Shown here piece after piece: positions 3,723 through 13,780 of a stretch of 28,223 nucleotides of DNA. The translations under genes were made by a program, and so were the position numbers. The notes beneath the pieces are model-generated. The model searched no databases, was not told where the DNA came from, and saw only the letters and a list, made by a program, of their open reading frames with translations. The stretch's first letter is position 1, and each line of letters opens with the position of its first letter. The stretch comes from a virus. The stretch lies in the IMG/VR virus record IMGVR_UViG_3300009790_000049, positions 1-28,223 of that record; one strand, given 5' to 3'.

Positions 3723-3852
3723 GGAGCAACCGTTGGATTACCTCAAAACCAACAACAAGAACGATGATGAACTGTTCAAGCAATCCTTTTGGCATGAGGA
3801 ATTGTTTGTTCCTTGGTGGAGACAATGGCTAAGAAAGATATTTGGAGTATGA
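3661..3852 (+). CDS. Small hypothetical protein
   Basis: The ATG at 3661 has a purine-rich AGGGAAA just upstream and gives 63 aa, beginning 'MTKKTLKKEPKNSS' and ending 'FVPWWRQWLRKIFGV'. The N-terminus is basic and polar. The C-terminus is aromatic and amphipathic, as in small membrane-associated peptides. It overlaps the end of the VRR-NUC gene and the start of the methyltransferase, so it bridges them in a coupled cluster. I recognise no family. An in-frame ATG at 3646 would add five residues. Confidence 0.45.
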   Translation: MTKKTLKKEPKNSSNEKLLLEEQPLDYLKTNNKNDDELFKQSFWHEELFVPWWRQWLRKIFGV

Positions 3853-4396
3853 GATATACACGCATTTAGATTTATTCTCAGGTATTGGTGGCTTTGCATT
3901 AGCCGCCAGAAACACAGGAAAGATCAAAACTGTTTCTTTCTGCGAGTTCGATCCGTACTGCCATACGATACTGAACAAGCATTGGCCGGGAGTACCGATT
4001 ATCAATGACATTCGACAACTGGACACAGCTAGATTTATTCGAGAACACGGAAGACCGTGGCTCATTACAGGAGGCTTCCCCTGTCAACCGTGGTCCGTTG
4101 CCGGAAAGCGAGAAGGACATAAGGATAAGCAAAACCGTGACCTCTGGCCGGAAATGTTTCGAGTCATTTCAGATCTCGCACCAAAATTCATCCTTGGAGA
4201 GAATGTGCCTGGATTTATTAACCTTCCCATGGGAATCGAACGCACGAACTCTGACTTGGAAAAGGAATACGAAGTCGCAACATTTAATATTCCAGCTTGT
4301 GCCATCTCGCTTTCCCACGAAAGAAAAAGAGTCTGGATCATCGCCAAGCGAAAACCTATGGGCAACACCGAACACTCTGGATCATCTACCCCCTAG
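3842..4396 (+). CDS. C5-cytosine DNA methyltransferase, N-terminal part (motifs I-VIII)
   Basis: This is a 184-aa product from a TTG start; upstream in the frame there is a stop at 3830 and no ATG before motif I. Visible motifs: I 'LDLFSGIGGF' (9-18), II 'CEFDPY' (34-39), III 'NDI' (55-57), IV 'GGFPCQPWS' (77-85) with catalytic Cys81, V-like 'RDLWPEMFRVI' (99-109), VI 'ENV' with Glu120, and VIII 'ERKRVWIIA' (160-168). The frame stops at 4396, where the variable/target-recognition region would begin, and then carries many stops. Motif X reappears in the same frame at about 5456. A complete Dcm-type enzyme is usually over 300 aa, so this piece alone should lack target recognition. It may be half of a split enzyme or a decaying gene. 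From 4005 it is overlapped by another long ORF in the +1 frame. Confidence 0.8.
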   Translation: MEYEIYTHLDLFSGIGGFALAARNTGKIKTVSFCEFDPYCHTILNKHWPGVPIINDIRQLDTARFIREHGRPWLITGGFPCQPWSVAGKREGHKDKQNRDLWPEMFRVISDLAPKFILGENVPGFINLPMGIERTNSDLEKEYEVATFNIPACAISLSHERKRVWIIAKRKPMGNTEHSGSSTP

Positions 4397-5405
4397 ATCA
4401 GAAGAATCCACAAGGAGAATGCAAACTGTTCATCGTAAAGGTCGGACACGCCCTCCTAATTTGCGTGAGCAAGTAGACCCAGCCACGATGAATATGTATC
4501 CAACACCCACTACCAAGGGTTTCGGTCATGCTAGTGAGGGTCAGACATTGATCTTTAGGCGTTTGGTTGAAGAGGGCAAGATGACGGAAGAAGAAGCACA
4601 ACAGATGATGAATGGCACTACATTACGGCCACCACGGATGAAAGAATGGATGTGGCCCACACCGAATTCAAGGGATTGGAAAGACTCTATGAATACCGTA
4701 CCTCCGTCAGTTGGTAAGACAAGAGGGTATACATTAGGAATGAAAGTGGCTGAAGAAAGAAACAAACTGTGGCCCACACCCAGAGCCACACAACCCAAGA
4801 AGAAGGGTGCTATAGAGATTAATGATAAAGGCAGACGTATTTCAAAGAATGGGCGTGATTACGGCTTGAACTTGGAAGAGAGTGTAGAGTTCTGGCCCAC
4901 ACCGACAACACAGGACAATCACCATGACAATATGGAATTGAACGAGAAGGGCAGACGTATATCGAAAGACGGAAAGAACGATCACAGTTTAAATTTAGCA
5001 GATAGGGTACAACTATGGCCAACACCAACAGTACAGGACAGCAACAAGGCAACAAAGAAGTGGAGAGAGGATCATCAGAACAATCTGACGGCGGCAGTAT
5101 TCAACCCAAACAAACTATGGCCAACACCAACTCACGACGACGGCAAAAACGTAAAGTTAAATCCGAACAGGAGACAGGGTCTTTATCAGGTAGTTCAGTA
5201 TTGGCCGACACCAACAACGAGGGATTGGAAAGGGGGTTATCCTGGGGGAAGAATACGGAATGGGAAAGTGAGCAAGGACACTCTGGACGTAACAGTACAG
5301 TTCACGGACAACAAGGAGAAGAAGAAGGTGCAGTTGAATCCCGAATGGGTTTCCGTTTTTTTGATGGGTTATCCACGCCATTGGATGAAGGGGAACTTGG
5401 AATAG
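4005..5405 (+). CDS. 466-aa WPTPT-repeat protein in the +1 frame of the methyltransferase
   Basis: This ORF starts inside the methyltransferase coding region and stays open for 1401 nt. Residues 45-110 contain 'TVTSGRKCFESFQ', 'NARTLTWKRNTKS' and 'LIFQLVPSRFPTKEKESGS'. I recognise these from a family of phage proteins of unknown function found at methyltransferase loci. From residue 119 eight copies of a (W/Y)(P/A)TPT-like motif occur (residues 119, 165, 217, 256, 297, 338, 372, 400), some followed by RDWK. Copies five and six sit in near-identical 41-residue units containing 'KGRRISK(N/D)G' and 'LNL'. The C-terminus has 'LNPEWVSVFLMGYPRHW'. The absence of any stop across a region where the methyltransferase frame has many argues that this frame is translated. 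The upstream GGGAG is 12 nt from the ATG, so initiation may depend on coupling. Function unknown; it may supply specificity to the split enzyme. Confidence 0.6.
   Translation: MTFDNWTQLDLFENTEDRGSLQEASPVNRGPLPESEKDIRISKTVTSGRKCFESFQISHQNSSLERMCLDLLTFPWESNARTLTWKRNTKSQHLIFQLVPSRFPTKEKESGSSPSENLWATPNTLDHLPPRSEESTRRMQTVHRKGRTRPPNLREQVDPATMNMYPTPTTKGFGHASEGQTLIFRRLVEEGKMTEEEAQQMMNGTTLRPPRMKEWMWPTPNSRDWKDSMNTVPPSVGKTRGYTLGMKVAEERNKLWPTPRATQPKKKGAIEINDKGRRISKNGRDYGLNLEESVEFWPTPTTQDNHHDNMELNEKGRRISKDGKNDHSLNLADRVQLWPTPTVQDSNKATKKWREDHQNNLTAAVFNPNKLWPTPTHDDGKNVKLNPNRRQGLYQVVQYWPTPTTRDWKGGYPGGRIRNGKVSKDTLDVTVQFTDNKEKKKVQLNPEWVSVFLMGYPRHWMKGNLE
4359..5225 (+). repeat. Eight-copy dual-frame coding repeat (TGGCCNACACC)
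   Basis: Copies of a TGGCCNACACCNAC-like unit begin at 4359, 4497, 4653, 4770, 4893, 5016, 5118 and 5202. All spacings (138, 156, 117, 123, 123, 102, 84 nt) are multiples of three. In one frame the unit reads (W/Y)(P/A)TPT. In the methyltransferase frame the same bases read MGNTE, VSNTH, VAHTE, VAHTQ, LAHTD, MANTN, MANTN and LADTN. The two 123-nt intervals around 4770-5016 are near-duplicates. Confidence 0.8.
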
Positions 5406-5533
5406 AGAGGGTAGGATCAGACATACCAGAGAGGGCAAAGAAACTCAAAGCGATTGGCAATGCCGTTGTTCCGGCTATACCAGAAGTCATACTGAGAGCC
5501 ATGCTTCGAGATGAGGAAAATGAAAAAAGTTAA
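5015..5533 (+). CDS. C5-cytosine methyltransferase C-terminal part (motifs IX-X)
   Basis: This 172-aa ORF is in the same frame as the N-terminal methyltransferase piece. It starts ATG GCC AAC ACC, with an AGGGT upstream. Residues 1-105 are low-complexity and Gln/Ser/Gly-rich, with 'MANTNS' twice (1-6, 35-40) and 'LADTNN' (63-68); such repeats sit in the variable region of phage C5 methyltransferases. 'MGFRFFDGLSTPLD' (111-124) resembles the usual 'VGRVADGLSxRLD' segment. 'RAKKLKAIGNAVVPAIPEVI' (140-159) is the classic motif IX/X end that packs on the cofactor site. Alone it cannot catalyse. It could complement the N-terminal subunit in trans, as in known two-subunit C5 enzymes, or be a remnant kept open by the overlapping frame. 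However, the part after 5405 is outside that overlap and is still well conserved. Confidence 0.6.
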   Translation: MANTNSTGQQQGNKEVERGSSEQSDGGSIQPKQTMANTNSRRRQKRKVKSEQETGSLSGSSVLADTNNEGLERGLSWGKNTEWESEQGHSGRNSTVHGQQGEEEGAVESRMGFRFFDGLSTPLDEGELGIERVGSDIPERAKKLKAIGNAVVPAIPEVILRAMLRDEENEKS

Positions 5534-12668: not shown

Positions 12669-13780
12669 ATGAGTACACAAGTAACTACAGCTTTCGTTCA
12701 GCAGTTTAGTAACAATATAACCATGTTGGCTCAACAAAGTGGTTCTCGTCTAAGAGGTGCAGTTTCAGAAGAAAGTGTAACAGGCGAGAAGGCATTTTTT
12801 GACCAAGTGGCTTCAGTTGCGGCTGTAAAACGGACATCGAGACACGGTGATACACCCCTCGTAGAAACCCCCCATTCCCGTAAAGTTCTAGCGGCTTAAT
12901 ATCGCAAGATATTTCGAAAAATTCTGTGAATTCAGAGAAAGTCTTACTGAGATAACTCTGAGCCAAGCCTAGCAATAGGAAGGTGCAACGACTATTCCGA
13001 AAGGAAGTAGGGTCAAGTGACCCGAAGCACAGAACATCCCACAGGGATGATGATATAGTCTGACCTATATGGCAACATATAGCAGCCGAAAGGCGGTCTT
13101 GTCCTAACGAAACAAGGCGAACATAAGTGAGAATGGTAACTATGGACACCTACGAATGGGCAGATCTTATCGATGATTCAGATAAGGTGGCTATGTTGGC
13201 TGATCCTACAAACGTCTACAGCAGAACGGCTGCTAATGCGATTGCTCGAAAAATGGATGATGCAATCATTGCGGCTGCCACAGGCACAGCGAAAACTGGA
13301 AAGTCTGGTTCTTCGTCCACATCTATGCTTTCAGCACATACTATTGCACATGGCTCAGCGGATTTGACCATTGCTAAATTGTTAAGTGCGAAAAAGCAAC
13401 TTGATTTGCAAGACGTCGATCCTAGCATCCCACGTTACATTGCTGTTGGTCCTAACCAGATCGAAGCTCTATTGGGTACAACCCAAGTAACAAGCAGCGA
13501 CTATAACACCGTAAAAGCTCTGGCCTCCGGCCAAGTTGATTCCTTCTTAGGTTTCAAATTTATTGTGTCTAATCGATTGGCGGTAGCTTCCAACATCAGA
13601 ACGTGTTTTGCATGGGCTGAAGACGGAATCAAGCTGGCTATGGGTAAGGATGTCATGGCGAGGATAGACCCCAGAGCTGATAAATCATATTCAACACAAG
13701 TGTACTACTGTGCAACATTTGGTAGTACGAGAATGGAAGAAGAAAAAGTCGTTTCCGTTCTTTGTGATGAATCAGCATAG
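12669..13780 (+). CDS. Major capsid protein, interrupted by a group I intron (join 12669..12881, 13130..13780)
   Basis: The joined exons encode 287 aa. Exon 1 (71 codons) opens 'MSTQVTTAFVQQFSNNI' and ends '...VETPHSR'. Exon 2 continues 'RMVTMDTYEWADLIDDSDKV', so the spliced product reads TPHSR-RMVTMDTYEWADLIDD, which matches the continuous sequence of this marine podovirus capsid family. Other family features are 'GSRLRGAV', 'AAVKRTSRHGDTPLVETPHSR', 'MDDAIIAAATGTA' and 'SVLCDESA' at the end. Without splicing, translation stops after 76 aa at 12899, so the phage depends on intron removal for capsid production. The second exon also shows a GTG-started ORF at 13127, but that is a by-product of the splice junction. 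The protein forms the HK97-fold shell. A strong Shine-Dalgarno precedes it. Confidence 0.92.
12882..13129 (+). ncRNA. Self-splicing group I intron (IA-like), 248 nt, no ORF
   Basis: The splice sites come from pairing. Exon 1 ends CCGU, which pairs with the intron's GCGG (12891-12894; P1, with the U-G pair at the cut). The intron's UUCU (12886-12889) pairs with AGAA at the start of exon 2 (P10). The intron ends in G (13129). Other elements: P2 AAUAUC-GCAA-GAUAUU (12898-12913); P7 GACUA (12990-12994) with UAGUC (13056-13060); P7.1 UUCC-GAAA-GGAA (12995-13006); P7.2 GGGUC-AAGU-GACCC (13010-13023); P8 CAUCCC-ACA-GGGAUG (13035-13049); P9 CUAUAUG-GCAA-CAUAUAG (13065-13082); P9.1 GCC-GAAA-GGC (13085-13094); P9.2 CUUGU...ACAAG (13098-13116). 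P3-P6 were not fully drawn. The P7.1/P7.2 stems and 'GAUAUAGUCUG' core resemble the T4 td-type IA introns. No homing endonuclease is present. Confidence 0.93.

Follow-up and report, generated by a model that had tools for sequence, protein, structure and literature searches.

One of the closest described counterparts of the intron reported here lies in the major capsid gene of mycobacteriophage LittleE; it is most likely a group I intron according to its authors, and was shown to splice in 2013 by RT-PCR and N-terminal protein sequencing (PMC3706429). Another capsid-gene intron, that of Tuc2009, is on record as cited in the same paper (PMC3706429). The LittleE intron differs from the present one in its length (819 nt), in carrying a LAGLIDADG-like frame, in its capsid and phage, and in occupying one site. 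The introns I1–I3 of Staphylococcus phage Twort orf142 (AF132670) belong to the same group I class, with several in one virion-protein gene, and I3 is ~70% identical to the intron described below; however, the Twort host gene is the tail tube gene of a firmicute phage, and the sites are non-homologous. An order similar to that of Twort orf142 is seen in a Silviavirus record (KY779848; L195, 1–97 and 395–1226), where three group I introns follow a GenBank 'truncated capsid protein'.

Phage C72C1 (OQ984150) carries an intron of the same class and of ~250 nt in a major capsid gene, scoring 205 bits with our model R1, but its capsid is of the SU10-type family (PF17236). This intron (L202, 3949–4213) is unannotated, and GenBank has two head-protein CDSs in its place. 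Automatic annotation will split such capsid genes in the same way, and marker-gene surveys of marine viruses would be distorted accordingly. HTVC010P and HTVC035P share the homologous capsid gene and gene order with the present locus, whereas in HTVC035P the capsid gene is uninterrupted and the whole record gives no group I intron match. Introns in capsid genes of HTVC010P-type phages or pelagiphages are unreported in the literature searched, which comprised few subscription journals and articles without their supplements. A capsid intron is thus not new in kind, and with LittleE, Tuc2009 as cited there, and C72C1 at hand, the rarity implied by an earlier sequence-only reading of this DNA proves overstated; the multi-site setting in HTVC010P-type marine phages looks new.

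The interrupted capsid gene and its predicted ribozyme

The window, that is, the whole stretch of DNA analysed, is the 28 kb IMG/VR record IMGVR_UViG_3300009790_000049 (28,223 nt). Its gene order and capsid resemble those of HTVC010P-type pelagiphages, and its G+C content is 42%, versus 34% in the compared HTVC035P stretch. The capsid frame opens at 12669, stops at 12899 and resumes elsewhere from 13130. Joining the two exons yields an open 287-aa capsid protein, so that removal of the intron restores the host gene, and both exons are contiguous within one capsid family in two profiles, phrog_3437 and Pfam Phage_capsid_2 (Table 1). Moreover, the close intronless relative L001, whose capsid is 91% identical overall to that of the window, reads CATTCGCGT followed directly by AGAATGGTAACTATGG over the predicted junction, with no insert. 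The sequence-only reading had proposed a 248-nt intron at 12882–13129 within the major capsid gene; its coordinates, splice sites and joined protein are exact to the base when set against the L001 junction and the two capsid profiles, and the joined product is continuous with intronless relatives. From the sequence we infer splicing at 12881/13130.

Table 1. Features of the capsid locus in window coordinates; paired strands are separated by a slash.
Feature	Position	Strand	Evidence or remark
Exon 1, major capsid gene, 71 codons	12669..12881	+	phrog_3437 profile 3-74; Pfam Phage_capsid_2 1-68
Group I intron of subgroup IA type (P7.1 and P7.2 present), 248 nt, no ORF	12882..13129	+	RF00028, covariation, exact empty site in L001
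Exon 2, major capsid gene, 216 codons and stop	13130..13780	+	phrog_3437 profile 75-293; Pfam Phage_capsid_2 69-293
In-frame TAA, intron codon 6	12897..12899	+	Without splicing, a truncated product of 76 aa is expected
P1: 12878-12881 (CCGU) / 12891-12894 (GCGG)	12878..12894	+	U.G wobble at 5' splice site
P10 5' strand UUCU, pairing with 13130-13133 (AGAA)	12886..12889	+	Aligns 3' splice site
P2 hairpin: 12898-12903/12908-12913	12898..12913	+	100% paired in 12 relatives
P3: 12922-12928 / 13028-13034	12922..13034	+	Fold and covariation; 100% paired
P4, enclosed by P3	12932-12937/12956-12961	+	Fold and covariation
P5, enclosed by P3	12942-12944/12950-12952	+	Fold and covariation
P6, enclosed by P3	12962-12964/12982-12984	+	Fold and covariation
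P6a, enclosed by P3	12968-12971/12976-12979	+	Fold and covariation
P7 (guanosine-binding helix): 12990-12994 / 13056-13060	12990..13060	+	Pseudoknot with P3; 100% paired
P7.1	12995-12998/13003-13006	+	Between P7 strands; conserved in relatives
P7.2	13010-13014/13019-13023	+	Between P7 strands; conserved in relatives
P8 hairpin: 13035-13040/13044-13049	13035..13049	+	Helix model and covariation
P9	13065-13070/13077-13082	+	Helix model and covariation
P9.1	13085-13087/13092-13094	+	Helix model and covariation
P9.2	13098-13102/13112-13116	+	Helix model and covariation

The proposed group I identity is borne out by the covariance-model search, in which RF00028 matches 12872–13082 with 97.6 bits (E 2.4e-24; Rfam cutoff 50 bits). 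The predicted fold of the intron strand has an energy of -75.5 kcal/mol (z -3.86), a stability that 0 of 200 shuffles reach. All helices from P1 through P10 can be written for the window intron, including P3, P4, P5, P6 and P6a, which the sequence-only reading had left unlisted; P1 and P10 are as it drew them. In keeping with the rules for group I ends and core, U12881 stands opposite G12891 in P1, the last intron base is G13129, and the core comprises P3–P8 with a covarying, pseudoknotted P7. Because P7.1 and P7.2 are present, the intron is assigned to subgroup IA, and only at that level.

Covariation was assessed in an alignment of 12 related introns, all from the same capsid gene. Standard pairs occupy 93.5% of structure cells versus 69.8% in shuffles, changes on both sides occur in 54 of 71 pairs, and the covariation score is 0.684 versus 0.221 in shuffles, a value that none of 500 reaches. 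Pairing falls to 33–44% when the partner strands are offset by one to three columns. P1 and P10 are <80% paired in this alignment, partly through misalignment of exon flanks between sites. When the sites are taken one at a time, every intron shows a P1 of three to seven pairs, whereas some introns have a weak P10, with a single pair in L177 at site 195. The P1 target and guide also covary across other sites, as CGCU/GGCG, CUCU/GGAG and GUCU/GGAC.

Ribosomes would be expected to halt at the stop at 12897–12899, ahead of the ribozyme core. Almost every capsid intron in this set has an in-frame stop soon after its 5' end, at codons 2 to 11 and, in L178, at codon 35; early stops of this kind have been read as letting the ribozyme fold without interference from ribosomes (review PMC3984707).

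The intron had been described as free of any reading frame and of an endonuclease, and this description holds: no endonuclease frame is present in it, no HNH_3 or GIY-YIG homing-endonuclease gene was found in the window, and the window genes covered by a Pfam scan include no homing endonuclease. The intron therefore does not encode the endonuclease by which a mobile (homing) group I intron is defined. The search for a free-standing partner endonuclease gave no GIY-YIG, and VRR_NUC was rejected as a partner on its occurrence in intronless records too. HNH_3 was likewise rejected: it matches only in the carriers L037, L152 and L177, where the 72–80 aa proteins adjoin terminase genes and look like packaging-linked HNH proteins, and, with 17 of the 34 records being carriers, its confinement to them (three of three) falls short of significance. 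The small free-standing HNH proteins that neighbour terminase genes in three carriers are located at L213 1527–1748, L214 1092–1310 and L215 958–1200.

Intron sites across HTVC010P-type capsid genes

Three scans yielded 170 distinct capsid loci, sampled as the best-matching ones and not at random. Among these fetched loci the gene is intact in 151 and interrupted in 11, the remainder being cut by contig ends; one locus (L053) starts inside a probable intron end. DNA-pattern scans added carriers, including L085, L177, L178, L179 and L181, and all interrupted loci that were scanned exceed the RF00028 cutoff. At least nine splice points exist, those found being at capsid nucleotides 127, 149, 158, 180, 194, 195, 213 (the window), 251 and 596, with two introns apiece in L037, L150 and L177. 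Eight of the nine lie within 125 nt of the 861-nt gene, a clustering met in 7 of 100,000 uniform draws, with the qualification that independence among the sites is incomplete and that sampling was non-random.

The introns appear confined to this gene within the phage group. Specifically, across 50 whole records, many of them fragments (48 from IMG/VR, HTVC035P and C72C1), model R1 and RF00028 each give 13 matches; 12 are known capsid-gene positions in the 49 records of the phage group, and the thirteenth is the C72C1 capsid intron. Accordingly, no intron outside the capsid gene was found with either model in those 49 whole records, many of them fragments. Model R1 is not itself restricted to capsid introns, since it also picks up introns in non-capsid genes of phages such as Twort, with scores reaching 219 bits.

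The predicted protein model of intronless L001, itself of low confidence (mean pLDDT 62; residues 45–74 <50), resembles capsids of the HK97 fold and encapsulins, its best match being 9eg4 (E 1.7e-10). The eight clustered sites correspond to residues 43–84, which include the low-confidence loop ahead of a long helix (100–121). In the HK97 fold, the E-loop is expected before the long helix, and the segment coding the eight sites is, on this model, probably that of the capsid E-loop.

Two further arrangements are seen among the carriers. At site 251 (L112, 2071–2317; L150, 2775–2999), the native capsid together with a five-pair P10 (CAAUG/CAUUG) needs an intron-final A in place of the usual G, making these introns possible omega-A variants. 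In L037, two introns of different class (2487–2734 and 2780–2981) lie 45 nt apart in one capsid gene, and its close relatives L029, L134 and L135 have no introns.

Intron history and the weighing of explanations

The distribution of the introns is patchy. On the capsid tree at least ten intron-state changes are needed, three of them for site 213, and only 2% separates the closest carrier and non-carrier capsids, the two-intron L037 being 98% identical to intronless L135. In the intron tree, whose deep branches are weak, the introns of the window and L003 (site 213) join those of L037 and L136 (site 149) with support 96/86. The window and site-149 introns share the target CCGU and the guide GCGG, and their P10 strands differ, each fitting its own exon 2. 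The short introns at sites 158, 194 and 596 cluster together (100/100) and lack P7.1 and P7.2 by inspection; all three sites follow GGU, which can pair with GCC, a different pairing having been picked by the script for 194. L158, which shares site 213 with the window, falls elsewhere in the intron tree. A largely capsid-only intron clade in the first tree dissolved once relatives from other phages were added, and the introns therefore probably entered the gene several times. As read from these sequences, the pattern suggests that introns have moved about inside the gene and have also come into it from outside several times. The L158 intron (370–629) combines another intron lineage at the window's site with a P1 region resembling that of site-149 introns, and is possibly a chimera.

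We hold with high confidence that the window carries a capsid-gene group I intron, most likely a selfish, splicing-neutral ribozyme subject to gain and loss. Guanosine-attack self-splicing is established for the group I family. In the transcript, P1 (CCGU with GCGG) would set the 5' splice site, guanosine bound by P7 would cut after U12881, and P10 (UUCU with AGAA) would position exon 2 for ligation at A13130, giving the 287-residue capsid protein, while ribosomes would leave the message at the in-frame stop, the sixth codon of the intron, ahead of the core. Spread between phages may depend on recombination or on a trans-acting endonuclease, with the intron persisting as a splicing-neutral selfish element.

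The sequence-only reading had offered splicing as a late-stage check on capsid synthesis, the intron acting as a regulator through its splicing efficiency. Such a role would suit a virion structural gene whose unspliced message gives only a 76-aa fragment, but it is unsupported, because one would expect phages to keep a regulator, and to keep it at a constant position. The 151 intact genes among the 170 loci include capsids 91% identical to that of the window and, for L037, 98%; carriers and non-carriers can be as little as 2% apart; and carriers differ in insertion site, nine being known. Regulation is accordingly judged very improbable. The start codon at 13127 might instead point to a truly split gene, in which translation of exon 2 begins independently, at GTG 13127 or ATG 13132, and the intron is a dead relic, a reading made very improbable by the intact ribozyme core, by helices that are all intact and covarying, and by the continuous protein kept in close relatives; judging from the structure model, the fragment would also be missing two parts of an HK97-type capsid, the N-terminal helix and the probable E-loop. 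That the insertion arose in assembly or sequencing might be argued from the window being a single uncultured-virus record. However, the same intron is present in L085, another IMG/VR contig, which shares 99.5% identity with the window along 6.7 kb, and in divergent form (94% intron identity) in a third IMG/VR contig, L003; an assembly artefact is therefore unlikely, and we consider an artefact of either kind exceedingly so.

Within the preferred reading of a selfish intron, it is possible, albeit rather doubtful, that the E-loop segment is a hotspot in which ORF-less group I introns hop within the gene through matches of three to four bases, a pattern to be expected from reverse splicing or from nicking in trans. 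Reverse splicing in theory takes four to six complementary bases, and direct proof is lacking (review PMC3984707). Related introns with a common guide at different sites, such as the sister introns at 213 and 149, would be expected from spread of this kind, and other routes may also produce them. If the hotspot reading is true, these phages would provide a natural test system for a mobility route with only circumstantial support from rDNA. More generally, a widespread group of marine phages has nine intron points in a single short capsid gene, with two introns in some genomes. These are natural replicates for studying the movement of ORF-less group I introns and the reasons for their tolerance in the gene of a virion protein needed in bulk.

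Elsewhere in the window, a cytosine methyltransferase gene (3842–5533) seemingly extends over two or three frames, by frameshift or as overlapping genes; its Pfam match covers 3842–4396, and 4005–5405 and 5015–5533 look by eye like its continuation.
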